Shown here: one piece after another, positions 16,847 through 35,011 of the stretch | Position numbering within the stretch: position 1 is the first letter of the stretch | How the letters are laid out: every line of letters starts with the position of its first letter | From: Hoeflea phototrophica DFL-43 | GTDB taxonomy: Bacteria > Pseudomonadota > Alphaproteobacteria > Rhizobiales > Rhizobiaceae | Direction: 5' to 3' | Length of the DNA stretch: 64,000 nt | Assembly (NCBI RefSeq): GCF_000154705.2 | Contig: NZ_CM002917.1 | Coordinates: forward strand, 434,001 to 498,000 | The notes under the pieces: model-generated | What the model was told of the DNA's origin: nothing | Database searches by the model: none | Seen by the model: the letters and a program-made list of their open reading frames with translations, nothing else | Position numbers and translations under genes: made by a program

Positions 16847-17139
16847 GACCGCACCTGAAGGTTGTTCGGTACGCCTTTCTTTGCGCCACAGGCTGTCCAT
16901 GTCATGATCTGCCTGGCAGATGGGTTCGCTGACAAGGTCTTTTCTAAGTGTGTTCCAGCCAAAATCTGCGCCCCGGTTGCGATTGCCCCGTTCCACAAAA
17001 TGTTGTCGTCCCGGTGGCATCCTTCTATTGCGCGACCCTACCGCCGCTGTAAAGCCTGACGCCCGGCGAGAGTGGAAAAACTGTCTAACTGTCAGCGTTA
17101 TCGGTGTCGAAGTTGCCGGCGCCGGCCTAAGATTTGGCT

Positions 17140-18060
17140 TCAGGCCTTGGCGAGAAGCGCATCGATTTCCGCGGAGGACGGCATTGCCGGTGCGGTTCCG
17201 GCGCGGGTGACCGAGATCGAGGCGGTGGCGCAGCCGTAACGGACGGCCGAAACCGGATCGAGACCGCGGGCAAGAGCTGCGGCAAAGCCGCCATTGAACG
17301 CGTCGCCCGCGCCGGTTGTTTCCTTGACCGGCCCGGCGTTGAACGCAGGCACATGAACGCTCTGGCCGCCCGCATGATAGAGCGCGCCCTTCTCGCCGAG
17401 CGTGATCACCGCGGCCTTCGCGCCCATTGCAATCAGCTTCTGAGCCGCCAGAGAGGCTTCCTCGAGCGTTGTGACCGCAAGGCCGGTCAGCGCTTCTGCC
17501 TCGGTTTCATTAGGTGTCACGTAATCGCACAATCCCAGCATGCCGTTCGGCAGCTTAGCGGCGGGGGCCGGGTTGAGAATGGTCTGCACGCCGCTGGACC
17601 GGGCGATTTCCAGCGCTCTGTAGGCGGCATCCAACGGCTGTTCGAGCTGGGTGACGAACACCGAGGCGCTGCCGATGAGATCTGATCGTGCCTCGATATC
17701 GCCAGGCGAGATCTGCCCGGCCACGCCGGGGCAGACGATGATGGCGTTGTCTCCGGTCTGCGCCTCGACAAAGATGTAGGCCGCACCGGTATAGCTGTCG
17801 TCATGCTTGGTGATGGCAGCGGTCACGCCGGCCTGTTTCCAGGTTTGCAGCGCCATGTCTGCGAATGTGTCGCGCCCCAACCTGCTGATGAAATGGGTTT
17901 CCACTCCGGCCCTGGCCGCAGCCACAGCCTGGTTCGAGCCCTTGCCGCCCGGCCCGAGCGCAAAGTTCTCACCCATGATGGTTTCACCCATGCGCGGTGC
18001 GCGGGCGGCGCGGTAGGCGGTGTCGGCAACGAACACGCCGAGGACAACGACTTTCGACAT
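17140..18060 (-). CDS. rbsK: Ribokinase (PfkB family)
   Basis: 306 residues. The substrate-binding glycine-rich motif GPGGKGSNQAVAAARAG (36-52) and the catalytic anion-hole motif TTGAGDAFNGGF (about 246-257) with the base D252 place it in the ribokinase group. MGETIMGENF is at 24-33. It phosphorylates a free pentose or similar sugar with ATP in the cytoplasm. It follows the fucU-like gene by 19 bp and shares an operon with the ABC ATPase gene. A second PfkB kinase (29069-29974) lies in the same locus, so the real substrate of each may not be ribose. Confidence 0.85.
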   Translation of the reverse strand: MSKVVVLGVFVADTAYRAARAPRMGETIMGENFALGPGGKGSNQAVAAARAGVETHFISRLGRDTFADMALQTWKQAGVTAAITKHDDSYTGAAYIFVEAQTGDNAIIVCPGVAGQISPGDIEARSDLIGSASVFVTQLEQPLDAAYRALEIARSSGVQTILNPAPAAKLPNGMLGLCDYVTPNETEAEALTGLAVTTLEEASLAAQKLIAMGAKAAVITLGEKGALYHAGGQSVHVPAFNAGPVKETTGAGDAFNGGFAAALARGLDPVSAVRYGCATASISVTRAGTAPAMPSSAEIDALLAKA

Positions 18061-18079
18061 GGCAGTATGTTTCCTGTTC

Positions 18080-18532
18080 CTAGGCGTCCGGCGGGATCAC
18101 GCCCTTGCGGAACATGAAGCAGCCATAGAACCGCCGTTCCCCGGTCTGGATCACCGCATAGGCCTGCTTGGCCAGATCGTAGAAGGCAAAACGCTCGATG
18201 CTGACCATTGGCCGTGGGGTGCCTTCCGCCGCATTGATCGCCTGCTGCACTTCCATCTGCACTGGAGGCACCTCGTCCGGATTGCCGACAATCTCCATGC
18301 GTCCGGCGAAATCATCGACAAATGTATCGAGCGGCAGCACCGAAAGCACCGCTTCTGCGGCCTGCCCGGCGGTCAGATTGTCCATGCGCAACAGATCGCC
18401 GATCACCGTCTGGCGGGCGATCGAATCGGATGGGAAATTCGTGTCGGCGATAATCAGTGTGTCCCCGTGACCCATTGCACGAAGCGCATAAAGCACTTCC
18501 GCATTCAGTCGCGGATCAAGTCCCTTGAGCAT
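18080..18532 (-). CDS. fucU: RbsD/FucU family sugar mutarotase, closest to L-fucose mutarotase FucU
   Basis: 150 residues from the ATG at 18532. MLKGLDPRLNAEVLYALRAM and MGHGDTLIIADTNFP with the catalytic histidine of the GHGD motif are the FucU pattern, and the end RRFYGCFMFRKGVIPP matches FucU rather than RbsD. The protein interconverts the anomers of a sugar such as L-fucose, or pyranose/furanose forms for ribose. Its partner rbsK downstream would suggest ribose, but the motif pattern and the fucose-type dehydrogenase and lactonase genes in the locus favour L-fucose or a related 6-deoxy sugar. An in-frame start at 18568 gives a leader without similarity. Confidence 0.82.
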   Translation of the reverse strand: MLKGLDPRLNAEVLYALRAMGHGDTLIIADTNFPSDSIARQTVIGDLLRMDNLTAGQAAEAVLSVLPLDTFVDDFAGRMEIVGNPDEVPPVQMEVQQAINAAEGTPRPMVSIERFAFYDLAKQAYAVIQTGERRFYGCFMFRKGVIPPDA

Positions 18533-18612
18533 AGTGTCCTCCCTTGCGTGGCTGTTTCGGTCCGCCATCTCCTCACCGGATCATGCGATCCGGCCGGTCG
18601 TTGTTCAAGTCG

Positions 18613-19677
18613 TCATTCGAGCCGCAATCCCGTGCCCGTGTCAAACAGGTGCGCCATCTCGGCCTGGGGGCGCAGCCTGATCGTGTCGCCTGGCCTAATG
18701 GACCTGCGCTCCCTCAGAACCACGATGATTTCGCGGCCCGCCGCACGCAGAACCAGATGGGTTTCCGACCCGGTCGGCTCGACCACAGCCACCTTTGCCT
18801 CAAAGCCGGTATCATCGAGAAGCAGGTGCTCCGGACGGATTCCGAAGGTTATCCTGCGGCCTTCATCAAGCCCGTCCATGTTCGGCGCTTCAAGCGAAAC
18901 GCCTTCTGCCACGACGAACGGCTGCCCGTCCTTGTGTTCAACCACGCCCTCGATCAGGTTCATCGACGGAGAGCCGATGAAGCCAGCGACAAACATGTTG
19001 GCAGGCCGGTCATAAAGCTCCAGCGGCGCACCCTGCTGCGAGATATGCCCGTCGCGCATGACCACGATCTGGTCGGCCATGGTCATGGCTTCGATCTGGT
19101 CATGGGTGACATAGACAGTCGTTGTCGACAGCCGTTGATGCAACTCGCGGATTTCGGTGCGCATTTGCACTCTGAGCTTGGCGTCGAGATTGGACAGCGG
19201 CTCGTCGAACAGGAACACTTGTGGTTCGCGCACAATCGCCCGGCCCATGGCAACGCGCTGGCGCTGGCCGCCCGAGAGTTCGCGTGGATAGCGTTTGAGA
19301 TAGGGTTTGAGGCCGAGGATCTCGGCCGCAGTGGCGACCCGCTGATCGATTTCAGCTTTCTCCATGCGCTGCATCTTGAGCGCAAATCCCATATTTGCGG
19401 CCACCGTCTTATGCGGATACAGCGCGTAATTCTGAAACACCATGGCGATGTTGCGTTCGGCAGGCGGTAGATTGTTGACCACCCGTCCGCCGATGCTGAT
19501 CGTGCCGTCCGTCACGCCTTCGAGGCCGGCCAGCATCCGCAACAAGGTCGATTTGCCACAGCCAGAGGGCCCCACAAGCACAACAAACCGGCCATCCGGA
19601 ATATCGACATCAACACCGTGGATGACTTCCACCGACCCGTAGGCCTTGTAGAGTTTCTCGATCCTGACGTCTGCCAT
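18613..19677 (-). CDS. Sugar ABC transporter ATP-binding protein (UgpC/SmoK/MsmK type)
   Basis: 354 residues. Walker A GPSGCGKST is at 36-44, with Q-loop VFQNYALYPHKTV, signature LSGGQRQRVAMGRAIVR, Walker B VFLFDEPLSNLDAKLR and H-loop YVTHDQIEAMTMAD. These are followed by a MalK-like TOBE domain (about 235-354, with FGIRPEHL). All motifs are canonical, so a homodimer should work. It energises the importer whose binding protein and two permeases are encoded divergently at 19930-23673. The 252-bp region between them carries the proposed GntR operator at 19757-19768, so both sides are probably controlled together. Confidence 0.93.
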   Translation of the reverse strand: MADVRIEKLYKAYGSVEVIHGVDVDIPDGRFVVLVGPSGCGKSTLLRMLAGLEGVTDGTISIGGRVVNNLPPAERNIAMVFQNYALYPHKTVAANMGFALKMQRMEKAEIDQRVATAAEILGLKPYLKRYPRELSGGQRQRVAMGRAIVREPQVFLFDEPLSNLDAKLRVQMRTEIRELHQRLSTTTVYVTHDQIEAMTMADQIVVMRDGHISQQGAPLELYDRPANMFVAGFIGSPSMNLIEGVVEHKDGQPFVVAEGVSLEAPNMDGLDEGRRITFGIRPEHLLLDDTGFEAKVAVVEPTGSETHLVLRAAGREIIVVLRERRSIRPGDTIRLRPQAEMAHLFDTGTGLRLE

Positions 19678-19756
19678 GCCGCCCCCTCTGTTTACACTGA
19701 CACTGTTTGGCCAAGTGGTAACGCAGGTTCAGGGCTCTGTCCATCATCTAGTCATA

Positions 19757-19768
19757 CTAGCATGTTAG
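19757..19768. promoter_or_regulatory. Candidate GntR operator 1 (CTAGCATGTTAG)
   Basis: The near-palindrome CTAGCATGTTAG lies in the divergent gap between the ABC ATPase operon and the binding-protein operon. It is 5 bp upstream of a TTGACA-like -35 element (19773-19778). Identical or near-identical copies occur at 27171-27182 and 31729-31740, always in a divergent promoter of the same locus. The copy next to the locus's own GntR gene is a perfect palindrome. The repeated sequence is seen directly; binding by the GntR protein is inferred. Confidence 0.7.
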
Positions 19769-19929
19769 ATGCTTGACAGCTTGGTTGAAGGCTGAAATGT
19801 TTTCATTCTGTCCGGCACATCCGGACCCGGGTGTTGGGACAATCAAGGCGTTAAACGACCAAGATCGTGGTCGGGCAGCCTCCCTGGCCCGGACCGCTGG
19901 AGGAGCGGATAACGCTTGGGAGGTGTTTC

Positions 19930-21561: not shown

Positions 21562-21579
21562 TCCGCCAGTCTGAAAATG

Positions 21580-21605
21580 ACGCCGGCGGTGCGAGCCGCC
21601 GGCGT
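21580..21605 (+). terminator. Intercistronic hairpin after the binding-protein gene
   Basis: A 10-bp perfect stem ACGCCGGCGG (21580-21589) / CCGCCGGCGT (21596-21605) with a 6-base loop lies 18 bp after the binding-protein stop. There is only a short ATTTC afterwards, not a T-run. It is more likely a partial terminator or an mRNA-stabilising structure that keeps binding protein in excess over permease. Similar hairpins are at the equivalent places in two other operons of the window. Confidence 0.65.
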
Positions 21606-21632
21606 ATTTCATGAAATACGGGGCATGCGCAG

Positions 21633-22739
21633 TTGGCTGAGCAGGGCGATTTCCTTCACGTTGTCACAACCGACAATCTCACCGATCGCAGGATTGCGCT
21701 CGGCCGTGCCATGATTTGGGGGTCGGCGGGCTTCCTGGCCGTGGTCGCACTCGTGCAGACCCTTCAGGAAACCGGATATGCCGACTTCGGCTTCTCCACC
21801 TGGCGGCCGACGCTCTATGCCTATGTGCTCTGGGCGATCTGCCTGTGCTGGGGCCAGGTGCTGATCCGCGGCGAACGCGGAAAGCGCGTGCTTTTCGTTC
21901 TGCCCGCGGCACTGTTCGTGATCTCGATGGTGGTGTTTCCGCTGCTGTTCGGGCTGGTAATCGCCTTCTCAGACTGGAACCTGTCATCGCCGACGGGCCG
22001 GACGTTCAACGGTCTCGACAACATCCGCCAGATGTGGACCGATGATTTCTACTGGAATGCAATGGCCAACATGGTGCGCTACACGCTGGCGATCATCGTT
22101 GAATATGCCATCGCCTTCGGGCTTGCACTTCTGCTCAACTCGCAGATCCACGCCCGCAAATTCTTCCGTGTCGCCTTCCTGATGCCGCTGATGCTCTCGC
22201 CGGTGGCGGTGAGCTGGATGATCGGCAAATCGATGATGGAGATCCGCTTCGGCCCGATTGCCCGGCTTGCGCGCGAACTGGGTTGGGCCTCGCCCTCCTT
22301 CTTCGGCTCGCCGGAGATGGCGCGCTTCACCATCATGGTGATGGATGCCTGGACCTACATTCCCTTCATGATGATCATGATTCTGGCCGGACTTCAGGCG
22401 ATCCCCAGGGACATCCAGGAAGCGGCGAAGGTGGATGGGGCGAGATCCTGGCGTGGGTTCTGGGAAGTCACTTTCCCGCTGATGCTGCCGGTCTCGATAA
22501 CCGTGATCCTGATCCGCATCATCTTCAAACTCAAACTTGCCGACATCATTATCAATGTCACTGCAGGCGGTCCCGGCGGCGCCACCGACAGTGTCACCAG
22601 CTTCATTTTCCGGGAATACCGCGACCGCTCCAATGTCGGTTACGGAACGCTGTTGGCGATGGTCTATCTGGTGCTGATCGTGATTGCGATCACCATCGTG
22701 ATGAAACTCACTGACCGCTGGGCGCGGCCGCGCTATTGA
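21633..22739 (+). CDS. Sugar ABC transporter permease (MalF/UgpA type)
   Basis: 368 residues from a TTG at 21633; an ATG at 21711 is an alternative start that would drop 26 residues. There are eight likely membrane segments, including two in an N-terminal extension, as in MalF-type permeases. The conserved cytoplasmic EAA loop reads IQEAAKVDGARSWRGFWEVTFPLMLPV near residues 262-288. It forms the translocation pore with the downstream permease, and the MsmK-like ATPase encoded divergently supplies energy. It is separated by 16 bp from the next permease gene. The substrate is the same unknown sugar as that of the binding protein. Confidence 0.88.
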   Translation: MAEQGDFLHVVTTDNLTDRRIALGRAMIWGSAGFLAVVALVQTLQETGYADFGFSTWRPTLYAYVLWAICLCWGQVLIRGERGKRVLFVLPAALFVISMVVFPLLFGLVIAFSDWNLSSPTGRTFNGLDNIRQMWTDDFYWNAMANMVRYTLAIIVEYAIAFGLALLLNSQIHARKFFRVAFLMPLMLSPVAVSWMIGKSMMEIRFGPIARLARELGWASPSFFGSPEMARFTIMVMDAWTYIPFMMIMILAGLQAIPRDIQEAAKVDGARSWRGFWEVTFPLMLPVSITVILIRIIFKLKLADIIINVTAGGPGGATDSVTSFIFREYRDRSNVGYGTLLAMVYLVLIVIAITIVMKLTDRWARPRY

Positions 22740-22755
22740 CCGGGGAGGGAAAACA

Positions 22756-23673
22756 GTGAGCCAGCAGATATTCCACGACAGCCCGGCCGACCTTGGCCAC
22801 AAGGTCAAATGGTTCTCCGGCCGCTTTGCGGTTTACAGCGTGCTGATCCTCTGGGCGATCATCTGCCTGTTTCCGATCTACTGGACCATCACCACCTCGT
22901 TCAAGATGGCGCCTGACGTGATGCGCGGAAACCTGATCCCGTTCTGGGATTTCCAGCCCAAATGGCTGGGCTGGAAATCGCTCGGCCTGTCACCCGACAC
23001 GATCAATGCCGAATCCACGGTGCGTGAGGAGTTCCTCAAGCGCTTCTACAATTCGGTGATCACCTCGCTCTCGGCCTCCGCACTTGCAGTCTTTCTTGGC
23101 TCGCTTGCAGCCTACGGCCTGTCGAGGTTTTCCTACCGCTTCGGCTTCATGCGCAACTCCGACATCTCGTTCTTCTTTTTGAGCCAGCTGATCCTGCCGC
23201 CGGTGGTTCTGGCGCTGCCATTCCTTGTGCTCTACAAATCACTGGCGCTGCTCGACACCCGCATCGGGCTGATCCTGCTCTACACGCTCACCGTGCTGCC
23301 GATCGTGATCTGGATCATGCGTGATCAGTTCGCCGGCATTCCCAAGGAGCTTGAAGAGGCGGCCCTGGTTGATGGATTGTCAATCTGGGGCGCTTTCGCC
23401 ACCATCGTCATGCCGATTGCGCTTCCGGGAATGGTCGCGGCCTTCATCCTGTCGCTGGTGCTGACCTGGAACGAATATTTCTTCGCAGCCCTGCTGACCT
23501 CGACCCACGCCAACACCCTGCCGGTGATGGTGGCCAGTCAGACCGGCAGCCAGGGCATCAGCTGGTGGTCCATGGCAGCCCTGTCGTTTGCCGCGATCTT
23601 GCCGCTTATCGCCATCGGCATCCTGCTCGAGCGCTACATCATCAAGGGCATGGCCGCCGGTGCGGTGAAGTAG
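22756..23673 (+). CDS. Sugar ABC transporter permease (MalG/UgpE type)
   Basis: 305 residues with six membrane segments and a short cytoplasmic N-terminus. The MalG-type opening YSVLILWAIICLFPIYWTITTSFK and the EAA loop LEEAALVDGLSIWGAFATIVMPIALPG near 200-226 are typical. A GTG start at 22756 follows a GGGGAGGG ribosome site. The gene ends 31 bp before the convergent FGGY kinase stop, with a small shared hairpin between them. Confidence 0.9.
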   Translation: MSQQIFHDSPADLGHKVKWFSGRFAVYSVLILWAIICLFPIYWTITTSFKMAPDVMRGNLIPFWDFQPKWLGWKSLGLSPDTINAESTVREEFLKRFYNSVITSLSASALAVFLGSLAAYGLSRFSYRFGFMRNSDISFFFLSQLILPPVVLALPFLVLYKSLALLDTRIGLILLYTLTVLPIVIWIMRDQFAGIPKELEEAALVDGLSIWGAFATIVMPIALPGMVAAFILSLVLTWNEYFFAALLTSTHANTLPVMVASQTGSQGISWWSMAALSFAAILPLIAIGILLERYIIKGMAAGAVK

Positions 23674-23688
23674 GGAGTGGCCTCAGAC

Positions 23689-23705
23689 AGCCGGAGACTC
23701 CGGCT
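23689..23705. terminator. Small convergent hairpin between permease and FGGY kinase genes
   Basis: AGCCGG (23689-23694) pairs with CCGGCT (23700-23705) around a five-base loop. It sits between two converging genes and touches the kinase stop codon. There is no T-run on either side, so termination would be weak. Confidence 0.35.
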
Positions 23706-25198
23706 TACTCCACGCGCCCCAACTCGGCCATGATGACCTTTGTCTGTTCATAGAGCCTGAGGAACAATGGATATTGCCGCGCGTAGGCCGCGTGGTTCTC
23801 GGCCTTGACGATTTCTCCCACTGGGTTCCACGTCGCCATATCGTCCGGCTGTGCCTGCCCTATTGCGAGTGCTGCCAGAAAGGCGTCACCATAAGAAGCG
23901 CCGGTGGTTACGCTGCAGACGATCTGGTCGAGGCCGGAAAGATCCGAAGTGGCCTTGAGCCACGGACGGTTTCTGGTTCCACCGCCCACCGCCAGCACTC
24001 GCGCCGGCCGTTGCCCGGCCTCGGCATAGGTGTCGGCGATGTGCCTTGTGGCCGAGGCTATGCCCTCGAGCACGGCGCGGTACATGTCGCCCCGGTCATG
24101 GGTGAGATCGAGACCGAAAAATGTGCCCTTGGCATTCGTGTCATGGATGGGTGTTCGTTCGCCCGAAAAATAGGGCAGGCAGATCAATCCCTTCGCTCCG
24201 GGCGGCGAGGCCTCGGCCTCCTTTGCCAGCACCCCGAAGGCCTCATCGCGTGAAAGCTCGCGGGCGAACCGGTCACGGAACCAGTGAGTCAGAGTGCCCG
24301 ATGTGGCAAGCCCCGCCATTGCAGCGTGCTCACCGGGGAACAGCCAGGGCGCATGCCACAGCCGCGCGTCGGACAGGGGTTTGTCGGAAAGCAGAATGAT
24401 GAAGATGGTTGAGCCATACATCATCATCATGTCGCCCGGTTGCCGCACGCCGACACTGACGGCTTCCGCCGCTGCATCTATGGTGCCGCAGGTTACCGGC
24501 GTTCCCGGCGCCAGCCCGGTTTCAAGGGCGGCGGCTTCCGTGACATGGCCTGCAATTTCGGTCGACCACATCAGTTTCGGCAGCAGCTCCGGTGGGCAGA
24601 AATCGCAAAGATCGAAACACCAGTCCTGCCTTGCAATGTCATAGATCGGCGAGAAATTTGCGGCCGTGTAATGGTCGATCGCATAGGTCCCGGTGAGCCG
24701 GTAGGTCATATAGCTGGTGGAATTGAGAATCTTGGCGGTCTTCGCCCAAAGCTCTGGATGGTTGCGCTTGAACCACAGGATCTTGGGTCCGACCGATTGC
24801 GAGGTCAGTGCATTGCCGCAGCGCTCAAGAATTGCGTCGGCGCCAATTTCGGCATTGAGGTCCTCGATCTCGCGCGCCGCTCTGGTATCGACACCATAAA
24901 GCACGCCGTTGATCAGTGGCGCGCCATCCCGATCGACCGGCAGCATGCAGGGCCCGATCGCCGAAGTCGCGACCGCACGGATCTCCGACGCGTCAACGCC
25001 ACTGTCAGCGATCAGCTTTCTGGTGATGAAAACGAAGTCGCCCCACCAGTCTTCTTCCGCACGGTGTTCGGCCCAGCCTGGCCGCGGCACGATCATCTCG
25101 TGCGGCCGCGCGGCCTGCGCAACGATCCGCCCGCCATCCTCCACCAGCACGCCCTTGGATTCGAACGTGCCGATATCAACACCCAGCGTGTAGCCCAT
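23705..25198 (-). CDS. FGGY-family carbohydrate kinase
   Basis: 497 residues. The N-terminal ATPase motif YTLGVDIGTFESKGVLVEDG (3-22) with its key aspartate is present, as is the GWAEHRAEEDWWGD substrate segment. GTPVTCGTIDAAAEAVSVG lies in the hinge and CLPYFSGERTPIHDTNAKG near 315-333. ILAVGGGTRNRPWLKATSDLSG, the adenine-binding glycine-rich stretch, is in the C-terminal domain. The family phosphorylates free ketoses or polyols (xylulose, fuculose, ribulose, glycerol). It is the third gene of a minus-strand operon behind the BtpA-like and M42 genes, 1 bp after the M42 stop. The substrate cannot be told; L-fuculose or a derived ketose is possible given the fucU-like gene. Confidence 0.9.
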   Translation of the reverse strand: MGYTLGVDIGTFESKGVLVEDGGRIVAQAARPHEMIVPRPGWAEHRAEEDWWGDFVFITRKLIADSGVDASEIRAVATSAIGPCMLPVDRDGAPLINGVLYGVDTRAAREIEDLNAEIGADAILERCGNALTSQSVGPKILWFKRNHPELWAKTAKILNSTSYMTYRLTGTYAIDHYTAANFSPIYDIARQDWCFDLCDFCPPELLPKLMWSTEIAGHVTEAAALETGLAPGTPVTCGTIDAAAEAVSVGVRQPGDMMMMYGSTIFIILLSDKPLSDARLWHAPWLFPGEHAAMAGLATSGTLTHWFRDRFARELSRDEAFGVLAKEAEASPPGAKGLICLPYFSGERTPIHDTNAKGTFFGLDLTHDRGDMYRAVLEGIASATRHIADTYAEAGQRPARVLAVGGGTRNRPWLKATSDLSGLDQIVCSVTTGASYGDAFLAALAIGQAQPDDMATWNPVGEIVKAENHAAYARQYPLFLRLYEQTKVIMAELGRVE

Positions 25199-25199
25199 C

Positions 25200-26297
25200 T
25201 CAGATCTCCCGGGTCAGCTTGAAGTCGGGGCCTATACCGGCGATTGCGGCAAGCGCGAGCCGGGTCATGGCTTCGACATCGCCCAGGTCGCAGCATTCAA
25301 CCGCCGAATGCGAATGCCGCATTGGAAAGCCGATATCGATGGAGGCGACGCCTTCTCCCACCAGTTGGACATAGGACAGATCGGTCAATACGCCGACCTG
25401 CGCCGAGCGCTGCAACGGCATTGCCAGATCCTCGGCGGTCTGTTCGAAGAGCCTAACCATTGCCGGATGCGGGATCACCCCGTTAAGCGTGCCGCGGCCA
25501 TGAAATGAATAAAGGCTGATACCGGGGCCACCGCCAAGCCGCATCTCGCCGCGCTCAGCCATATCCGGCGTATCGGTGGCAAGCATCAGGTCGATCTGGA
25601 TCGCGATGTCGGGTTTGAGCGCCTGAGCCGCCACCAGCGCGCCGCGCAGATTGAACTCTTCCTGCACGCTGAAGACCACATGCACTGTCGGCCCTGTCCC
25701 TTCACGCTTGGCAAGGCCGCGCGCGATCTCGATAAGGGCCGCGCATCCGGCCCGGTCATCGACCGAGGTTCCTGCCACCCGGTCGCCTGCCAGCTCGAAG
25801 ATCCGCGGTTGATAGACCACCGGCGTCCCGATCTTCACCCCCGCCGCTTCCACTGCCTGCTTTGAACCATGACCGGTGTCGATCCGGATATCCGGCGTTG
25901 TCACCACCTTGTATTTCTCATCCGGTGAGGTCGCGTGATGCGCCTTGTTCATGATGATGCCCGGCACGTCCCGGCCTTCGCCCACGCAGAGTGTCACCGC
26001 CTGCGCAGCCATCGCGCGTTCCGACACGCCACCCATGCGCTCGACCCGGATCAACCCGTCATTCTCGATCTTGCGCACAAAGAAGCCGAGCTGGTCCATG
26101 TGAGTGAAGATCATCACCGAAGGGATCGCCAGATCGCCGTTAAAGCTGGCGATCACATTGCCCATCCGGTCCACCCGGCTTGCAACGCCAGCGTCCGAGA
26201 GCCTTGATCGGATCAACTTTGCCACCCGCTCCTCATGGCCGGAAAGGCCCGGCGTCATCATCAGATCGTAAAGATCTTCACGCAACTGTTGCCGCAT
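25200..26297 (-). CDS. M42-family metallopeptidase-like protein
   Basis: 365 residues. The di-zinc peptidase pattern is intact: FTHMDQLGFFVRK with H66 and D68, TSVDDRAGCAALIEIARGL with the bridging aspartate, FSVQEEFNLRGA with the catalytic glutamates, and a late MRHSHSAVE histidine. M42 enzymes are cytoplasmic aminopeptidases or deacylases, historically also annotated as endoglucanases. The ATG at 26297 overlaps the BtpA-like gene stop. Its place between a BtpA/SgcQ gene and a sugar kinase gene inside a GntR-controlled sugar operon is unusual for a peptidase. A role in cleaving an amide or ester on a modified sugar is conceivable but unproven. Confidence 0.88.
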   Translation of the reverse strand: MRQQLREDLYDLMMTPGLSGHEERVAKLIRSRLSDAGVASRVDRMGNVIASFNGDLAIPSVMIFTHMDQLGFFVRKIENDGLIRVERMGGVSERAMAAQAVTLCVGEGRDVPGIIMNKAHHATSPDEKYKVVTTPDIRIDTGHGSKQAVEAAGVKIGTPVVYQPRIFELAGDRVAGTSVDDRAGCAALIEIARGLAKREGTGPTVHVVFSVQEEFNLRGALVAAQALKPDIAIQIDLMLATDTPDMAERGEMRLGGGPGISLYSFHGRGTLNGVIPHPAMVRLFEQTAEDLAMPLQRSAQVGVLTDLSYVQLVGEGVASIDIGFPMRHSHSAVECCDLGDVEAMTRLALAAIAGIGPDFKLTREI

Positions 26298-27109
26298 CAC
26301 ACACCACCCCGTGCAGCTCGGGCCCGGTCCATCAGGTCCTGGGCGCGATTGGGATCAATCGCCTTCCAGGTGTCGCCGTCGATCTTCAGCGCCGAACCTA
26401 TGACACAGCCATCCGCGACCGCAAGCACATCGGCGATGGTGGCGTGCTTGACACCTGTATTGGCCAGCACCGGCGTGTCGGGCAACGCCTTCTTGACGGC
26501 TTCAAGATCGGACAGGGCCGCGGCTTCGCCGGTGATCTGGCCGGACACCAGCACCGCATCCGGGATAGAGGAGAACACGGCACTGCGGGCCCGGTCGGCA
26601 AGCGGCCGCCGGTCGAGGCTGTCGGCAAACTCTGCCGAGACATTGTAGAGCATGGCAAGGTCGCCCCGGCACAGACGATCCCGGTAGCGCATCGCCTTGC
26701 CGGCATCCGGCGTCCAGGGACCCATGTCGCTGGCATAGGTTCCGGTGAAGATTTCGCGCACGAACTGCGCACCGGTGGCGGCGGCAAGCGCGATCGAGCT
26801 CATCGGATCCCACAGCACATTGACGCCGAAGGGAGCCGTGATCTCGTTGCGCAATTGCCCGATGACATAGGCCATGGTGGCCGTCGATGCGGTATCGACG
26901 TCAAATTCGTAGGGCCGGTCGTTCTCATTGCCGAACATGACGGCGTCAAATCCGGCAGCCTGAAGCGCCACAAGATCGGCGCGAGCGGCGGCAACCAGCC
27001 CTTCAAGCCCGGCCTCGCGGTCGTGAAGCGGAGAGCCCGGCAAGGCGCCAAGGTGAACCATGCCAATGACCGGCTTGCCGGATCCGAAAACGCGCTTAAA
27101 GTTTTTCAA
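26297..27109 (-). CDS. BtpA/SgcQ family protein (TIM-barrel, function unclear)
   Basis: 270 residues from a TTG at 27109, chosen because GGGGAAG lies 4 bases upstream; a TTG at 27124 is the only longer option. The COG0434 pattern is clear: PVIGMVHLGALPGSP at the N-terminus, FDAVMFGNENDRPYEF, a middle LWDPMSSIALAAATGAQFVRE and the C-terminal NTGVKHATIADVLAVADGCVIGSALK resembling a phosphate-binding barrel end. The family is named after a cyanobacterial photosystem I biogenesis protein. In enteric bacteria SgcQ sits in a sugar PTS operon, where its reaction is unknown. It leads the minus-strand operon to M42 and FGGY genes, divergent from the aldo/keto reductase across operator 2. Confidence 0.88.
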   Translation of the reverse strand: MKNFKRVFGSGKPVIGMVHLGALPGSPLHDREAGLEGLVAAARADLVALQAAGFDAVMFGNENDRPYEFDVDTASTATMAYVIGQLRNEITAPFGVNVLWDPMSSIALAAATGAQFVREIFTGTYASDMGPWTPDAGKAMRYRDRLCRGDLAMLYNVSAEFADSLDRRPLADRARSAVFSSIPDAVLVSGQITGEAAALSDLEAVKKALPDTPVLANTGVKHATIADVLAVADGCVIGSALKIDGDTWKAIDPNRAQDLMDRARAARGGV

Positions 27110-27170
27110 TCCACTTCCCCCCAAAGCCGCATTTGATGAAACAGGACTATGCAGCCGATCAGCAAATATA

Positions 27171-27182
27171 CTAGCATGTTAG
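27171..27182. promoter_or_regulatory. Candidate GntR operator 2 (CTAGCATGTTAG)
   Basis: Same 12-bp sequence as operator 1, and the shared block extends three bases further on the left (ATACTAGCATGTTAG). It lies 18 bp before the aldo/keto reductase start (27200) and 62 bp before the BtpA-like start, so binding would block both directions. Its position also argues that translation of the reductase starts at 27200 and not at an upstream ATG (27149) that would place the operator inside the coding region. Confidence 0.7.
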
Positions 27183-27199
27183 CAGGCAGGGAGGCGCAG

Positions 27200-28234
27200 A
27201 TGCAATTGAAGACACGACATTGGGATCGGCTTGGTAACGGCGGGCTGACATTCACCGAACTGGGTTTCGGGACGGCACCTCTTGGCAATCTTTACAAGAC
27301 CATCAGTGATGATGAGGCACAGGCGGTTCTGAGCCGGGCCTGGGATCTGGGCGTACGCTATTTCGACACCGCGCCGCTTTATGGTCTTGGTCTGTCGGAG
27401 ACCCGGCTGAACCGCTTCCTGCGCGACAAACCCCGCGACGACTATGTGCTGTCGACCAAGATAGGGCGGTTGTTGCGAACCTGCCAACAGGGCGAAGAAC
27501 GCGATTGCATCGGCAAATTCTTCGATGTGCCGGCGCGCAAAGAAGTCTATGACTTCACCTATGACGGGGTGATGCGCTCGCTTGAATTCTCGCTGGAGCG
27601 TTTGGGTGTTGACCGGGTCGACATCCTGTTTGCCCACGATCTCGACATCTTCAACCATGGCAGCCAGGAAGCGCTCGACGTCAAGCTCAAGGAGCTGATG
27701 GACGGTGGATACAAGGCACTGATGTCATTGCGCGATCAGGGCGTGATCAAGGCCTTTGGCGCCGGCGTCAATGAATGGCAGCCCTGTCAGTGGATGACAG
27801 AGCGCGGCGATTTCGATCTGTTCCTGCTGGCCGGGCGCTACACATTGCTTGAGCAGGAAGCGCTTGAGAGCTTCCTGCCTCTGGCGCGCGAACGCGGCAT
27901 CGGCATCATCATCGGCGGGCCTTACAATTCAGGGGTGCTCGCCACAGGCCCCAAACCTGGTGCGTTTTACAATTATGATCCGGCACCGCAGCACATTCTT
28001 GATCAGGTCGCCCGCATCGAGGCCGTCTGCAACCGGCACAAGGTGCGCATGGTCGATGCAGCCTTTCAGTTCCCGCTCAGTCACCCGGCGGTGGTGTCGG
28101 TGATTCCTGGCGGGCAGGGGGTCTGGGAAGTCGAGGCCAATCTGGCCGCTGCCACCGCCAAAATTCCGCCGACGCTCTGGGCTGATCTGAAATCCGAAGG
28201 TCTGATGAGGGAAGATTCGCCGGTCATGGCATAG
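27200..28234 (+). CDS. Aldo/keto reductase, likely sugar 1-dehydrogenase (L-fucose / D-threo-aldose dehydrogenase-like)
   Basis: 344 residues from the ATG at 27200, which has GGGAGGCG just upstream. The AKR catalytic tetrad is visible: D56, Y61 (DTAPLYG), K87 (STKIGR) and H146 (LFAHDLD). The opening LTFTELGFGTAPLGNLYKTI and the unusual insert RTCQQGEERDCIGKFFDVPARK are typical of the D-threo-aldose 1-dehydrogenase/pyridoxal dehydrogenase group. That group oxidises L-fucose and similar sugars to the lactone with NAD(P). A lactonase gene follows 13 bp later, so the pair should turn an aldose into its aldonic acid. Confidence 0.88.
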   Translation: MQLKTRHWDRLGNGGLTFTELGFGTAPLGNLYKTISDDEAQAVLSRAWDLGVRYFDTAPLYGLGLSETRLNRFLRDKPRDDYVLSTKIGRLLRTCQQGEERDCIGKFFDVPARKEVYDFTYDGVMRSLEFSLERLGVDRVDILFAHDLDIFNHGSQEALDVKLKELMDGGYKALMSLRDQGVIKAFGAGVNEWQPCQWMTERGDFDLFLLAGRYTLLEQEALESFLPLARERGIGIIIGGPYNSGVLATGPKPGAFYNYDPAPQHILDQVARIEAVCNRHKVRMVDAAFQFPLSHPAVVSVIPGGQGVWEVEANLAAATAKIPPTLWADLKSEGLMREDSPVMA

Positions 28235-28247
28235 AGGGGGCGGAAGC

Positions 28248-29087
28248 ATGAAGATCGACGCGCATCAGCATTTCTGGAACCCTGCCCGCGGTGACTACGA
28301 CTGGATGCCGATGGACAATGAGATCCTGGCGCGTCCCTACGCGCCGGCTGACCTCATGCCGCATCTGGCGGACTACGGTATCGACGCCACCATCCTGGTG
28401 CAGGCTGCCGCCACCGTGCACGAGACCGAATACATGCTCGGCATAGCCGATGCCACGCCCTTCGTCGCCGGTGTCGTTGGCTGGGTGGACTTCGAAAACC
28501 CTGCTGATCTCGAAGTGCTCAAACGCTTGTCGAAACATCCGAAATTCAAGGGCGTGCGCCCGATGATCCAGGACATTCCGGATGTGAACTGGATGCTCAG
28601 GGACGATGTCCAATGGGCCTTCCGCGCGATTTGCGAACTCGATCTGACTTTCGACGCGCTCGGCTTTCCGCCACATCTCGACAATTTCCTGACCATCCTC
28701 AAACGCTATCCGGACATGAGAGCGGTCATCGATCATTGCATGAAGCCGCAGATCCGCGATCACTCCGCGGACAATTTTCGCTTCTGGGCCGACGGTATGG
28801 CACGCCTGGCTCAGGAAACCAGAACCTGCTGCAAGTTCTCGGCGTTGGTCACAGAGGCCAACCCGGGCTGGATCGTTGAGGATCTCAAACCCTATGCCGA
28901 TCATGTTGTTTCGGCCTTTGGTGCTGATCGGGTGATGTGGGGCTCGGACTGGCCGGTCTGCCGCCTGGCAGCAAGCTATGAGGCCTGGCACACCGCAGCC
29001 GAAGCTCTCACGATCGGGCTCACCGCGTCAGAAAAGACCGAAATCTATGGCGGCACGGCGGCACGCTTCTACCGGATCGATGGCTGA
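28248..29087 (+). CDS. Amidohydrolase-family lactonase (L-fuconolactonase / rhamnonolactonase-like)
   Basis: 279 residues. The N-terminus KIDAHQHFWNPARGDYDWM has the HxH motif (H6, H8) and DRVMWGSDWPVCRL near the C-terminus has the metal-binding aspartate. Between them lie VGWVDFEN, KFKGVRPMIQD and AVIDHCMKPQI. This COG3618 group hydrolyses sugar 1,4- or 1,5-lactones such as L-fucono- or L-rhamnono-lactone. It is cotranscribed with the aldo/keto reductase and is the second step of an oxidative aldose pathway. Its last 19 bp overlap the end of the convergent PfkB gene. Confidence 0.87.
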   Translation: MKIDAHQHFWNPARGDYDWMPMDNEILARPYAPADLMPHLADYGIDATILVQAAATVHETEYMLGIADATPFVAGVVGWVDFENPADLEVLKRLSKHPKFKGVRPMIQDIPDVNWMLRDDVQWAFRAICELDLTFDALGFPPHLDNFLTILKRYPDMRAVIDHCMKPQIRDHSADNFRFWADGMARLAQETRTCCKFSALVTEANPGWIVEDLKPYADHVVSAFGADRVMWGSDWPVCRLAASYEAWHTAAEALTIGLTASEKTEIYGGTAARFYRIDG

Positions 29088-29974
29088 GCCATCAGCGCGT
29101 CGGCCTTTTGGCGGGTGATGGCGTCGCGCTGAGCGATGGGCGTCGACACGTGCAACGCCGCTGCGGCCTGACCAAAGCGCGCCGCTTCCGCAAGGCCTTC
29201 ACCACGAGAATGGGCGGCCGCCAGAGCGCCCAGAAACGCATCTCCCGCCCCATGGGTCGACACCACAACGACCCGATGCCCCGGATGGTGCACCGCCGTG
29301 CCTCCGTCATGGAGAACGAGACCACCGCCCCCCAGGGTCACAATTACCGAGCGCGGTCCCAGCTTGGTCAGGGCCTGCGCCGCTGCAAGCGGATCAAGGT
29401 TGGCTTCCGTGATGGCCAGGAGATCCGCTGCTTCGACACGGTTGACCACCAGAATGTCGATCACGCCCAGCAGCTCCGGTCCCATCGGGCGGGCCGGCGC
29501 GGCATTCAGCACGACGCTTGCACCGATGCTTCGGCCCTTGAGCGCCACAGCAAGATTGACCGCTTCGGGCACTTCATTCTGCAGCAGCACGACGTTTGCA
29601 TCGGCGGGCATGTCGATCAGGCCAGGGTCTACGTTGAGGTTGGCCGCCGAAACGATCACCGCGCCATAGCCGCCATCCGGCTCGACGATGGCGACACTCA
29701 TTCCCGATGCGCCGCTGTCGCGTTGCACCTGGCCTGTCTCGACGCCCGCATCCATCAGGCCCTTGAGCAATGCTGCGCCGGACGGGTCATCGCCAATCCG
29801 TCCTGCGAACGCGGTCCTTGCCCCCATGCGCGCCGCCGCAACCGCCTGATTGCCGCCCTTGCCGCCCATGATGTAGTTGACTGCAGCTCCCGCGACCGTC
29901 TCATCGAGCCTTGGCAGATGGGGCGCGTCGACCACCACATCATAATGCAGCGATCCGCAGACAAAGACGCTCAC
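29069..29974 (-). CDS. PfkB-family carbohydrate kinase (ribokinase-like)
   Basis: 301 residues. The glycine motif MGGKGGNQAVAAARMGART (37-55) and the catalytic STHGAGDAFLGALAAA motif (about 240-255) with the GAGD aspartate are intact. VLLQNEVPEAVNLAVALKGR is a ribokinase-like core segment. It phosphorylates a sugar or keto-deoxy sugar with ATP. Its start overlaps the TIM-barrel gene stop as ATGA, giving an operon gntR, TIM-barrel gene, kinase gene on the minus strand. The oxidative branch encoded nearby would need a keto-deoxy sugar kinase or aldolase, so a 2-keto-3-deoxy-sugar kinase role is possible but not shown. Confidence 0.87.
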   Translation of the reverse strand: MSVFVCGSLHYDVVVDAPHLPRLDETVAGAAVNYIMGGKGGNQAVAAARMGARTAFAGRIGDDPSGAALLKGLMDAGVETGQVQRDSGASGMSVAIVEPDGGYGAVIVSAANLNVDPGLIDMPADANVVLLQNEVPEAVNLAVALKGRSIGASVVLNAAPARPMGPELLGVIDILVVNRVEAADLLAITEANLDPLAAAQALTKLGPRSVIVTLGGGGLVLHDGGTAVHHPGHRVVVVSTHGAGDAFLGALAAAHSRGEGLAEAARFGQAAAALHVSTPIAQRDAITRQKADALMAQPSIR

Positions 29975-30954
29975 TTCTGCGGTCCGTAAAGCGCGTTCGC
30001 GACAAAGCCGAGAGACGCAGTTGCGTCCTGCCGGGCGATGGCTTCCGCCAAATCGGCATTGTCCGTCAGGCTCGATGCGACGGCTCTCAGCCGCTCGGCC
30101 ATCATGATGTTGGCGCGGGCCTCGGCGCAGGGGTCAAGCCCGCCATGATCGGGGAAGGTGTCGAAATAGATCACCCCGTCATAGCCCATGCGATCAAGCT
30201 CGACGAACAGCTCCACAGTCTGCACCGGATGAACCGAGCCGACCATCAGCCCGTCATCACGCTTGCCGTAGCCGTCATTCAGGTGCACGCCCAGAAGCTT
30301 CGAGTGCCGCTCGATAAGCCGGGCTGAATGGGCCGGAATTTCGTCGGCATAAAGCACATGGGCGAAATCCAGCGTGACGCCAAGATTTGGCCGGTTGGCT
30401 TCACGGATTGCCAGCAGCGTGGTGCCGATGTCGGGCATCAGCGCGTAGGCACGCGGCTCGTTGGGTTTGTATTCGATGGCGACCTCGAGATCGCGATTGT
30501 GGTCTGCGACGGCCTGGACCGCCGAAATCGTATCGTCCCACATCCTGACGTAATCACCCTGGAACGAGTAATCGACACCGTCCTGTCCCATCCACAAGGT
30601 CATCACCTTGCCGCCCATTGCAGCAAGCGCATCCAGCCCGCGTTTGGTAATGTCGAGCGCCGCCTGACGTACCTTCGGATCCGGGTTGGTGAAGGCGCCG
30701 AGCCGGAAGCCCGGATCGGTGTAATAGCGCATCGCCAGCCCGTTGAGCGCCATGCCGTTTCCGGACAGGATTTCCGACAGCGCCTGTGGCGAGTGATCTG
30801 CGAAATGGTCGGGGTAATTGAGATCTGCGGCATCCAGCCCCTTCACCTGGGCGGCGCGGGCAATCATGTCCGCTGCGGTTGGCTTGCCATCCAGCCCGGT
30901 CTTGAAAGCATTGAGCCTGGCGGCGTAGCGCGGGCGATTGGGCAGGTCGGGCAT
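29971..30954 (-). CDS. Sugar isomerase/epimerase, xylose-isomerase-like TIM barrel
   Basis: 327 residues with an AP-endonuclease-2/xylose-isomerase-like fold. VMTLWMGQDGVDYSFQGDY, LEVAIEYKPNEPRAY with a metal-ligand glutamate, GVTLDFAHVLYADE with an aspartate and DGVIYFDTFPDH near the end supply the usual Glu/Asp/His metal site. Such proteins isomerise aldoses and ketoses or epimerise ketoses. It follows the gntR gene by 38 bp. With the FGGY kinase it could form an aldose-to-ketose-phosphate route parallel to the oxidative one, though this is inferred. Confidence 0.85.
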   Translation of the reverse strand: MPDLPNRPRYAARLNAFKTGLDGKPTAADMIARAAQVKGLDAADLNYPDHFADHSPQALSEILSGNGMALNGLAMRYYTDPGFRLGAFTNPDPKVRQAALDITKRGLDALAAMGGKVMTLWMGQDGVDYSFQGDYVRMWDDTISAVQAVADHNRDLEVAIEYKPNEPRAYALMPDIGTTLLAIREANRPNLGVTLDFAHVLYADEIPAHSARLIERHSKLLGVHLNDGYGKRDDGLMVGSVHPVQTVELFVELDRMGYDGVIYFDTFPDHGGLDPCAEARANIMMAERLRAVASSLTDNADLAEAIARQDATASLGFVANALYGPQK

Positions 30955-30992
30955 GATGGTCCTTTCAGGACGGCGGTGCAGTGGTCACGCCA

Positions 30993-31691
30993 TTAGCTGT
31001 TGTCGAACAATTCCGGATGCGAATGGACCAGCGGCTCAAGAAACGTGATCAGTTGGCTCAGATGATACTGTGTGGCCGCCCGTGCGGCTTCCGGATCATG
31101 GGCTTCAAGAGCGGCGACGATTGCCTTGTGTTCCTCGAGCGTGGCTTCGATACGTCCTGGCGCGGGCAGGTTAAGCTGCCGGGCGCGATTGACATGAACC
31201 CAGGCGGTGTCCGCCAGCACGGCCAGCCGCTTGTAGTTGGTGAACGACAGGATCAGCTCATGCATCTTGGCGTCCATCTGATAGAAGCCGGCGATGTCGC
31301 CATCCTCCATCAGGGCTTGCTGGATCCTGAGATTGCGCCTGAGCAACACCAGTTGCTCCTCGGCGATCGTCTTGGCGACAACCTCGATGGCCGCCAGTTC
31401 CAGCGCCTCGCGCAGGAAAGCGCCTTCCCGGATCTCGTTCATCGAGAACTTGGCGACGAATGTGCCAGCCTGTGGCACCACATTGACCAGGCCCTCGGCG
31501 GACAGCCGCGCCACGGCTTCGGCAACCGGTGACCGCGACACGCCGAGCTCGGCGCAGATCTCGGGTTTCTGCATGATTTCGCCCGGCCGGAAGGTCAGCG
31601 ACAGGATCGCCTGCTTGAGCGACATGTAGACCTTTTGGGCAAGCGACCCCGGAAACTCGTCAAGGCGCGGCAGGGCAGGTCGTGGATTCAT
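30993..31691 (-). CDS. GntR-family regulator, FadR/FCD subfamily
   Basis: 232 residues from the ATG at 31691 (an in-frame ATG at 31727 lies next to the operator and has no ribosome site). The winged helix is at about 15-75: LAQKVYMSLKQAILSLTFRPGE, followed by EICAELGVSRSPVAEAVARL and the wing GLVNVVPQAGTFVAKF. The all-helical FCD effector domain follows, with the metal/ligand histidines in the MDAKMHELIL and EEHKAIVAAL helices. It is divergent from the UxaA-type dehydratase across a perfect 12-bp palindrome, and the same palindrome recurs at the two other divergent promoters of the locus. It is probably the local repressor, released by a sugar acid. Confidence 0.92.
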   Translation of the reverse strand: MNPRPALPRLDEFPGSLAQKVYMSLKQAILSLTFRPGEIMQKPEICAELGVSRSPVAEAVARLSAEGLVNVVPQAGTFVAKFSMNEIREGAFLREALELAAIEVVAKTIAEEQLVLLRRNLRIQQALMEDGDIAGFYQMDAKMHELILSFTNYKRLAVLADTAWVHVNRARQLNLPAPGRIEATLEEHKAIVAALEAHDPEAARAATQYHLSQLITFLEPLVHSHPELFDNS

Positions 31692-31728
31692 GGATTCTCG
31701 CAGTGGATTATCCTTAGCGTGTAGCATT

Positions 31729-31740
31729 CTAACATGTTAG
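31729..31740. promoter_or_regulatory. Candidate GntR operator 3, perfect palindrome CTAACATGTTAG
   Basis: A perfect 12-bp palindrome between the gntR gene and the UxaA-type gene, 37 bp from the chosen gntR start and 70 bp from the dehydratase start. It differs from operators 1 and 2 by one base (A instead of G at position 4), which makes it fully symmetric. The location beside the regulator's own gene suggests autoregulation. Confidence 0.72.
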
Positions 31741-31810
31741 ATGGAAGGTTGAACGTGTCAAGCCGATGCACGGTTTGCCACTTTCGCCCCTTATACAGAC
31801 GGACCGGACT

Positions 31811-33337
31811 ATGACAACTCAACTCAACGCGGCGATTCGCCTAAACCCTGATGATAATATTGTCATTGCGCTCAAGGATCTCGAAACCGGCGTGCAGCTG
31901 CCGGATCTTGATCGGCCATTGTCACAGGCGGTGGCGCGCGGCCACAAGATCGCCATTCGCGACATCGCCCTCGGCGAGAAAATTGTTCGCTATGGCCAGA
32001 CCATCGGCGTTGCCACATCCGCCATTGCGCCCGGAGAGCATGTGCATGTCCACAATCTCGGCATGGGCGGCCATGGCGCGGACTACGCTTTTTCAACCCA
32101 GGTCCACCCCTTGTCCGTACCGGCGGAGCAACGCCATTTCATGGGTTATCACCGGGCGGACGGATCGGTCGGCACCCGCAATTATCTCGGCATTTTGACT
32201 TCGGTGAACTGTTCGGGCTCGGTGGCGCGCTTCATCGCTGAGGCGGTGGAAAAGCAGGGCTGGTTGTCGGAGTTTGAGAATGTCGATGGCGTGGTGCCGA
32301 TTGTGCACGGCACGGGGTGTGGCATGTCAGGCAACGACGAAGGCTATGACACCCTGTTCCGCACGCTTCAGGGCTATGCCCGCAATCCCAATTTCGCCGG
32401 CATCCTGCTCTTGGGGCTTGGCTGCGAGGTGATGCAGGTGCCCGATCTGGTGGGCCGCGGCCGGATGCGGACCGATAGCAATTTCCGCTACATGACGATC
32501 CAGCAATCAGGCGGCACCCGCAAGACCATCGAGCGCGCTTTGGAGCAACTCAAGGAGATGGCTGCGGCCGCCAACAAGAGCGCTCGTGCGCCCGCCGGCC
32601 TCGAACATCTGATGGTGGGCATGCAATGCGGCGGCTCCGACGGCTATTCCGGCATCACCGCCAATCCGGCACTGGGCGCGGCGTCGGACATGCTGGTTGC
32701 CCATGGCGGCACCACCATTCTGTCGGAAACCTCGGAGATCTATGGTGCCGAGCACCTGCTCACCCGCCGCGCGGTGACACCTCAGGTGGGCGCGAAGATC
32801 GTTGAGCGGATTCACTGGTGGGAGGAGTACACCGCCCGCAATGGCGGTCAGATGGACAACAATCCTTCGCCTGGCAACAAGAAGGGCGGTCTCACCACGA
32901 TCCTGGAGAAATCACTTGGCGCGGTGGCCAAGGGTGGCACGGCGCCTTTGACCCAGGTCTACAAATTCGCTGAGCCGGTGACAGAGCGCGGGTTCGTGTT
33001 CATGGACAGCCCAGGCTATGACCCCTGTTCGGTGACCGGACAGATTGCCTCGGGCGCCAATCTGGTGGTTTTTACCACCGGGCGCGGATCGGTCTCGGGC
33101 TACAAGCCGACACCCTGCATCAAGCTTGCCACCAATTCGGAAATGTACAGCCGGATGTCGGAAGACATGGACCTCAATTGCGGCGACATCGTCAGCGAGG
33201 GTGTCAGCCTGGAGGACAAGGGCCGCGAGATTTTCGAGCTGTTTCTCCGCGTGGCTTCCGGCGAGCAAACCAAAAGCGAGGAACTGGGCTTTGGCGGCGC
33301 GGAATTCGTCCCCTGGCAGATGGGCGCAGTGATGTAG
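31811..33337 (+). CDS. UxaA-family dehydratase (altronate/galactarate dehydratase-like, fused SAF + UxaA domains)
   Basis: 508 residues from the ATG at 31811 (an ATG at 31766 is in frame but lacks a ribosome site). An N-terminal SAF domain (about 10-95, ending in HVHVHNLGMGGHG) is fused to the large catalytic domain. That domain contains GYHRADGSVGTRNYLGILTSVNCSG, THGTGCGMSG-like VHGTGCGMSGNDEG, MQCGGSDGYSGITANPALGAASD, ETSEIYGAEHLLTRRAV and GKKGG-type NKKGGLTTI. Family members remove water from sugar acids such as altronate and galactarate using Fe/Mn. In this locus it would act on the aldonate from the reductase/lactonase pair, possibly L-fuconate. A split relative, SuyAB, is at 50068-51548. 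Confidence 0.9.
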   Translation: MTTQLNAAIRLNPDDNIVIALKDLETGVQLPDLDRPLSQAVARGHKIAIRDIALGEKIVRYGQTIGVATSAIAPGEHVHVHNLGMGGHGADYAFSTQVHPLSVPAEQRHFMGYHRADGSVGTRNYLGILTSVNCSGSVARFIAEAVEKQGWLSEFENVDGVVPIVHGTGCGMSGNDEGYDTLFRTLQGYARNPNFAGILLLGLGCEVMQVPDLVGRGRMRTDSNFRYMTIQQSGGTRKTIERALEQLKEMAAAANKSARAPAGLEHLMVGMQCGGSDGYSGITANPALGAASDMLVAHGGTTILSETSEIYGAEHLLTRRAVTPQVGAKIVERIHWWEEYTARNGGQMDNNPSPGNKKGGLTTILEKSLGAVAKGGTAPLTQVYKFAEPVTERGFVFMDSPGYDPCSVTGQIASGANLVVFTTGRGSVSGYKPTPCIKLATNSEMYSRMSEDMDLNCGDIVSEGVSLEDKGREIFELFLRVASGEQTKSEELGFGGAEFVPWQMGAVM

Positions 33338-34997: not shown

Positions 34998-35011
34998 GTC
35001 CTGCCCCTCCC

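Follow-up and report, generated by a model that had tools for sequence, protein, structure and literature searches.

The 64,000-nucleotide stretch of Hoeflea phototrophica DFL-43 DNA analyzed here (contig NZ_CM002917.1, positions 434,001 to 498,000), referred to below as the window, includes a putative sugar locus that encodes a GntR/FCD regulator and in which a 12-base palindrome is found in three gaps between divergently oriented genes. From the first gap the genes for a UgpC-type ATPase, an RbsD/FucU protein and a ribokinase-type kinase run leftward, and those for the solute-binding protein and two permeases of an ATP-binding cassette (ABC) importer run rightward. The second gap separates the BtpA/SgcQ, M42 and FGGY kinase genes from those for an aldo/keto reductase (akr) and a lactonase-like amidohydrolase, and the third separates gntR and the genes for a xylose-isomerase-like protein and a PfkB kinase from the gene for a UxaA-like dehydratase (uxaA). 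Each gene run begins at one of the gaps, a layout that agrees with the proposal, made in a first-pass annotation of this DNA, that the three gaps head all units between 17.1 and 33.3 kb. The coordinates of the genes and sites are shown in Table 1.

Table 1. Genes, palindromes (putative operators 1-3) and associated elements of the sugar locus, with positions in the window
Feature	Position	Strand	Matches and remarks
Ribokinase-type PfkB kinase	17140-18060	-	TIGR02152 308 bits, cut-off 299.65
RbsD/FucU mutarotase	18080-18535	-	PF05025; L-fucose mutarotase model 83 of 141 bits
UgpC/MalK-type ABC ATPase (ugpC)	18613-19677	-	NF008653 501 bits, cut-off 432
Operator 1, CTAGCATGTTAG	19757-19768		In ugpC-sbp gap 19678-19929
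ABC solute-binding protein (sbp), 543 residues	19930-21561	+	PF13416, PF01547
ABC sugar permease 1	21633-22739	+	PF00528
ABC sugar permease 2	22756-23673	+	PF00528
FGGY-family carbohydrate kinase	23705-25198	-	PF00370, PF02782
M42-family peptidase-like protein	25200-26300	-	PF05343
BtpA/SgcQ family protein (btpA)	26297-27124	-	TIGR00259 246 bits, cut-off 153
Operator 2, CTAGCATGTTAG	27171-27182		In btpA-akr gap 27125-27199; ends 17 bp 5' of the chosen akr start
Aldo/keto reductase (akr)	27200-28234	+	PF00248 (scanned with start 27149); closest by sequence, among solved structures, to L-galactose dehydrogenases
Amidohydrolase, lactonase-like	28248-29087	+	PF04909; NF052480 L-fucono-1,5-lactonase 212 of 400 bits
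PfkB-family sugar kinase	29069-29974	-	PF00294
Xylose-isomerase-like TIM barrel	29971-30954	-	PF01261; PDB 3ktc
GntR/FCD regulator (gntR), 232 residues	30993-31691	-	PF00392 64.4 bits (cut-off 27), PF07729 88.1 bits (cut-off 24.3); longer start 31727 possible
Third half-site, TAGCAT	31722-31727	+	8 bp from left half of operator 3, gntR side
Operator 3, CTAACATGTTAG	31729-31740		Perfect palindrome; in gntR-uxaA gap 31692-31765
Promoter-like TTGACA-16-TAACAT for gntR	31734-31761	-	10/12 bases agree with the consensus (0.2 expected); identified by consensus only; second hexamer within operator 3
UxaA-like galactarate/altronate-type dehydratase (uxaA)	31766-33337	+	PF20629, PF04295, PF08666; TIGR03248 381 of 731 bits

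The three 12-mers, which the first-pass annotation had located one to a gap and the gntR-proximal of which it had described as a perfect palindrome, were found at those positions by sequence matching. Their placement within the gaps goes with the starts that we chose for akr (27200) and gntR (31691); the open reading frame list gives 27149 and 31727, and with these starts operator 2 lies inside akr and operator 3 immediately adjoins gntR. The sequence GGGAGG precedes the akr start at 27200, as judged by eye.

Allowing two mismatches, the window includes 10 matches on both strands, compared with 2.4 expected. In the genome as a whole (G000, a single contig of 4,468,465 bases) four places were found at up to one mismatch, all of them exact copies of CTARCATGTTAG, and a reversed control pattern gave 3 forward and 5 reverse matches. 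Since the control is as common as the site at one mismatch, the excess of the site consists of exact matches, with four places for CTARCATGYTAG and none for the control. The 12-mer could have proved frequent elsewhere in the genome, and only one exact place in 4.47 Mb was found in addition to the three of the locus. The 16-mer core, used with up to three mismatches, added two weak places, which made 6 on the forward strand versus 24 for the control, and across 61 genomes the forward pattern occurred at 49 places and the reversed control at 13. Literature searches for the 12-mer, its 10-base core, and CTAACATG together with GntR returned nothing relevant among titles and the starts of abstracts, a scope that lies outside RegPrecise and the motif supplement of PMC5507952, so that an earlier description of the motif is possible; among the related papers listed, none names the locus in its title or at the start of its abstract.

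Conservation of the palindrome and its association with the regulator

Orthologous loci (L labels) were drawn from genomes (G labels) and from named contigs, the best-matching of which are from Hoeflea, with duplicates entered once, and the counts take in only loci whose gap lay on retrieved DNA. The relatives are kin to each other, some being nearly the same species, and the counts are for this reason not independent. The gap between ugpC and sbp has an exact CTARCATGYTAG in 10/10 loci. Upstream of gntR, where uxaA is the divergent neighbor in 26 of 30 regions, the site is present at up to one mismatch in all 30 and exact in 23. Upstream of akr it was found at up to one mismatch in each of the first 15 rows (exact in 11) and, when six further gaps are included, in 16/21, L067 adding one site with one mismatch; the akr rows of G030 and G031, where akr lies behind gntR in the same direction, and of L066, where it lies behind a permease gene, were left out, the best match in each having 5 mismatches. 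Dinucleotide shuffles of the same gaps gave 0.003 (ugpC-sbp), 0.023 (gntR) and 0.007 (akr, first 15 rows) matches per set. Among these 15 akr rows the distance from the end of the site to the start of the akr match is 15-17 bp in 11 and 21-39 bp in 4. In the gntR set (28 rows; the base statistics omit L066akr, G057 and L065) the core has 1.1-1.9 bits per base, and the flanks outside the CAT extension described below have at most 0.7, except for two bases. This set is composed of Hoeflea, two other genera of the family, two genomes from other families in the order, Rhodobacterales, other alphaproteobacterial contigs and one Microvirga contig. The expectation that the sites would be kept upstream of orthologous operons therefore held in Hoeflea and Rhodobacterales, with the exception of akr in five short Hoeflea loci.

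In two genomes, G005 (L114) and G003 (L117), uxaA is located away from gntR and is preceded by an exact site of its own, at 66 and 52 bp, respectively, from the tblastn match, and gntR in the same genomes also keeps a site, exact in G003 and with one mismatch in G005. Proteins resembling GDP-mannose dehydratase and a partner were noted by eye close to uxaA in L114. G004 holds two GntR copies (L102 and L094), 75% and 84% identical to that of the window, one beside uxaA with an exact site and the other, which belongs to the main locus, with a site that has one mismatch. In the window a GMC oxidoreductase gene (33426-35015) without a site of its own adjoins uxaA, and such a gene is also a neighbor of uxaA in L058, L061 and L117.

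At gntR the conserved sequence extends beyond the palindrome. A TARCAT-like half-site 8 bp to the gntR side, with at least 5 of 6 matches, is present in 22 of the 30 gntR upstream regions, versus 2/10 and 2/15 at the other two gaps and 2/30 at the mirror position of the gntR promoters. When all 55 sites are taken together the offset of -8 is found in 26 and each of the other tested offsets in 0-7, seven sites having a half-site at +7. The CAT extension was consequently rejected as a general third half-site and is considered a feature restricted to gntR promoters.

All 17 genomes that encode a GntR relative with 49% identity or more have the exact site, as do 4/44 of the others (61 genomes; Fisher p ~1e-11, not corrected for kinship). 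No exact site was found in the four Hoeflea genomes that lack this GntR, one of which is only 77% complete. The regulators of the window type also share an unusual recognition helix, which in the alignment reads PV[AST][ED]A; Escherichia coli FadR and the majority of the other FCD proteins carry Arg there (VREA, for example). Among 32 FCD loci, an exact upstream site is present in the three whose helix is PV[ST]EA, and the other 29 have none at up to one mismatch within at most 400 bp upstream, a comparison in which L080 contributes hardly any upstream DNA and L091 no helix sequence; two of the three PV[ST]EA loci are also in the gntR set under other names, the third being L074. The possibility that the unusual box results from loss of the equivalent of FadR Arg35 was dropped because that Arg is missing from almost every FCD protein in the comparison and so does not discriminate. 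From the positions of the sites, the rarity of exact copies, their conservation, their co-occurrence with the regulator and the association with the helix variant we infer binding: the palindromes are very probably binding sites of the cluster's own GntR-type regulator, as the first-pass annotation had suggested.

Proposed regulation and alternative readings

We consider it highly likely that the palindrome serves the GntR/FCD regulator as its operator, and that a dimer of this protein acts at the three divergent promoters, repressing six units until it is released by a sugar-derived effector. The dimer would bind CTARCATGYTAG in all three promoters and, at its own promoter, a longer tripartite site that includes the TAGCAT half-site 8 bp away. 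Bound GntR would cover promoter elements, such as the -10-like hexamer in operator 3, and operator 2 would hold it 17 bp before the akr start codon; with promoter elements covered, the most likely action would be repression of the six divergent units, gntR included. Binding of the sugar, or of an aldonate or keto-acid derived from it, to the FCD domain could then lift the repression, and the freed genes would permit the import of one aldose and its conversion by mutarotase, aldose dehydrogenase, lactonase and dehydratase in turn, with kinases forming a further branch. The arrangement of sites and genes is most simply read as steric repression. To this scheme may be added the tripartite site at gntR promoters, the noncanonical box, the location of akr outside the regulon in short loci, and the possible sharing of the site with a second regulator.

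A number of results weigh against this reading. A scan of gaps 1 and 2 returned no complete consensus promoter, so that steric repression rests mainly on position. The core, TARC-AT-GYTA, differs from the TKGT/ACMA boxes given for the FadR subfamily in PMC4494728; the absence of these boxes bears on the operator and not on the membership of the protein in the family, and other exceptions to them are named in that article. In the genome of DFL-43 the reversed control equals the site in frequency when one mismatch is allowed. Four genomes without a close GntR (G018, G021, G029 and G041) have the exact 12-mer; in G041 a GntR relative of 33% identity adjoins uxaA, with the site. L023, which has the similar helix PLAEA, has no site, and neither do L024, L027 and L077, in which an FCD gene has uxaA nearby; the FCD-uxaA gene pair alone is therefore no predictor of the site. 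The akr-rbsD gaps of G001, G009, G011, G013 and G014 also lack it, with best matches at 4-5 mismatches. In these short Hoeflea loci the site is kept only upstream of gntR, and akr is therefore not always under the operator. Finally, the core is probably read also by another group of FCD regulators, as described below.

As side observations on the short akr-rbsD loci, L099, L103, L104, L105 and L106 have a site at gntR and none upstream of akr or rbsD, and the Hoeflea alexandrii-type loci L099 and L103 (20 kb examined) include, of the genes of the locus, only rbsD, akr, gntR and uxaA.

The fourth genomic site, an exact CTAACATGTTAG at C1:1240311-1240322 of G000 (L004, L005), lies 33 bp before an FCD gene of a different type, designated T (C1:1240356), which is divergent from a TRAP transporter gene and whose product is about 26% identical to the GntR of the window. 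Relatives of this TRAP locus pair with genes for DapA-like aldolases. In seven other Hoeflea an FCD regulator of a type designated U, 34-36% identical to the T type, is encoded beside a dapA-like gene, upstream of which the site is found (five exact, two with one mismatch), and the same arrangement with an exact site is present in G018, which belongs to another genus. An order-wide draw of 249 genomes included 23 with a U-type relative at E 1e-45; of their 24 U-type loci, 8 have the site at up to one mismatch (3 exact). The GntR of the window was not found at E 1e-45 in those 23 genomes or in G018, G021 and G029; the same query matches in 17 genomes at E 1e-65 or better. U-type loci thus have the site in genomes without this GntR, and in part of its range the group is probably able to recognize the core on its own. 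The T- and U-type regulators retain the Arg of the recognition helix and nevertheless have the site, which counts against a simple helix code.

In eight loci of another FCD group (L111, L113, L118, L119, L125, L148, L149 and L157) the same exact palindrome stands upstream of a dapA-like gene adjoining the regulator; L125, L148, L149 and L157 are from genomes without the GntR of the window at E 1e-45. In G030 (L124) an exact site precedes a short-chain dehydrogenase/reductase (SDR) gene, a 55% relative of which is found in the DFL-43 genome at C1:3926810, apart from the locus and with no site at up to one mismatch in the genome-wide scan.

These data raise the alternative that the sugar-locus sites are read by, or common to, the T-type regulator, the sugar and TRAP loci being cross-regulated. 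The identical site before the T-type gene and the sites in 8/24 U-type loci of genomes without the GntR of the window speak for it. On the other hand, 16/24 U-type loci have no site at up to one mismatch in the 3.6 kb examined, the T site has neither the CAT extension nor a third half-site in the same register, and Hoeflea without a T/U-type match at E 1e-30 (such as G005, G014, G015 and G017) still keep the sugar-locus sites, which therefore are independent of the T/U-type regulators. We regard this alternative as possible and on balance unlikely. An extended form of it, in which two FCD regulators with about 26% identity and different recognition helices use the same 12-base operator in one genome, so that the aldose and TRAP loci form one cross-wired sugar-acid circuit and the third half-site gives what discrimination exists, seems to us about equally doubtful. 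The first-pass view of a self-contained regulon is right only in part, given the identical site before another FCD regulator gene.

It is far less probable that the conserved block is mainly promoter sequence, made up of the -10 elements of two promoters set back to back, rather than an operator. The TTGACA-16-TAACAT match overlaps operator 3, and by eye -10 boxes are also suggested by TATACT, next to operator 2, and by TAGTAT/TAGAAT of the other strand; however, a -10 box would not be expected to keep a 12-base palindrome (23/30 exact), to be so rare elsewhere in the genome, or to follow the occurrence of a single GntR gene. A chance origin, or a small repeat on a mobile element, could be suspected from the existence of only three copies of 12 bases in the window and from the equal frequency of the reversed control at one mismatch. 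As the four genomic places are all exact, the site is kept in the corresponding gaps of Hoeflea, Rhodobacterales contigs and one Microvirga contig, and the shuffles are near zero, we give such an origin next to no credence and have ruled it out. Binding by the locus-encoded GntR remains the preferred reading.

Possible substrate of the pathway

The enzymes are in keeping with the oxidative breakdown of an aldose that has the L-galacto or D-arabino configuration. Among solved structures the aldo/keto reductase is nearest by sequence to L-galactose dehydrogenases, and the mutarotase, aldo/keto reductase, lactonase and dehydratase all score below the curated equivalog cut-offs. L-Fucose was not accepted as the substrate because the mutarotase and the fuconolactonase-like amidohydrolase are below the equivalog cut-offs (Table 1). 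The Pfam scan of the locus proteins brought up neither an SDR nor any other protein that might act as 2-keto-3-deoxy-fuconate dehydrogenase, nor a hydrolase that could take the product of that enzyme. In PMC3764936 the phenotype array of H. phototrophica DFL-43 is reported as negative for L-fucose and for L-galactonic acid gamma-lactone and positive for L-lyxose. The genome analyzed here encodes two photosynthetic reaction-center (Photo_RC) proteins, in agreement with the pufL and pufM genes mentioned in that article.

The sugar locus is adjoined at 14033-17020 by genes for a GDP-mannose 4,6-dehydratase, a GT10 fucosyltransferase-like protein and an FkbM methyltransferase, which suggests that genes for a fucosylated surface polysaccharide lie beside a possible fucose-type catabolic locus.

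Comparison with known systems

The conserved palindrome is real, and the regulon that it very probably marks is of a solid and ordinary kind. Its GntR winged helix-turn-helix and FCD domain place the regulator in the FadR (FCD) subfamily described in PMC4494728, and the palindrome in the divergent gap beside the regulator gene resembles the divergons described there for this subfamily. Extra half-sites 7-12 nt away are, according to the same article, a feature of GntR operators, and the third half-site at gntR promoters is like the additional weaker half-site found at this distance from the center. The differences lie in the box, as noted above, and in the helix, PV[AST][ED]A in the window-type regulators versus Arg (VREA) in most of the compared FCD proteins. 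Prediction of FCD operators would benefit from the link between this helix position and the site, and from the use that a second group of regulators apparently makes of the same site.

The locus is comparable to those for the oxidative catabolism of L-fucose and L-galactose in that it includes an RbsD/FucU protein, an L-galactose-dehydrogenase-like aldo/keto reductase, a fuconolactonase-like amidohydrolase and a sugar-acid dehydratase. It differs in that the dehydratase is of the UxaA/GarD type and in the addition of two PfkB kinases, an FGGY kinase, and the BtpA and M42 proteins. FucR sites were predicted by comparative genomics in fucose loci of saline-lake consortia, one of them in a Rhodobacteraceae bin (PMC5507952).

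The palindrome supplies a candidate operator that can be tested, and with it a conserved regulon, in a sugar locus of marine Alphaproteobacteria that includes BtpA/SgcQ and M42 proteins, and shared regulation would link these two proteins to one pathway. Their genes (25200-27124) lie beside the FGGY kinase gene, and the three stay together in a number of Rhodobacterales loci that also encode this regulator (L063, L069, L070 and L072). BtpA/SgcQ and M42-family proteins are also encoded together in the E. coli sgc operon, as SgcQ and SgcX; the transport system there is a phosphotransferase system, whereas the locus described here has an ABC importer, an FGGY kinase, an oxidative branch and a GntR/FCD regulator.

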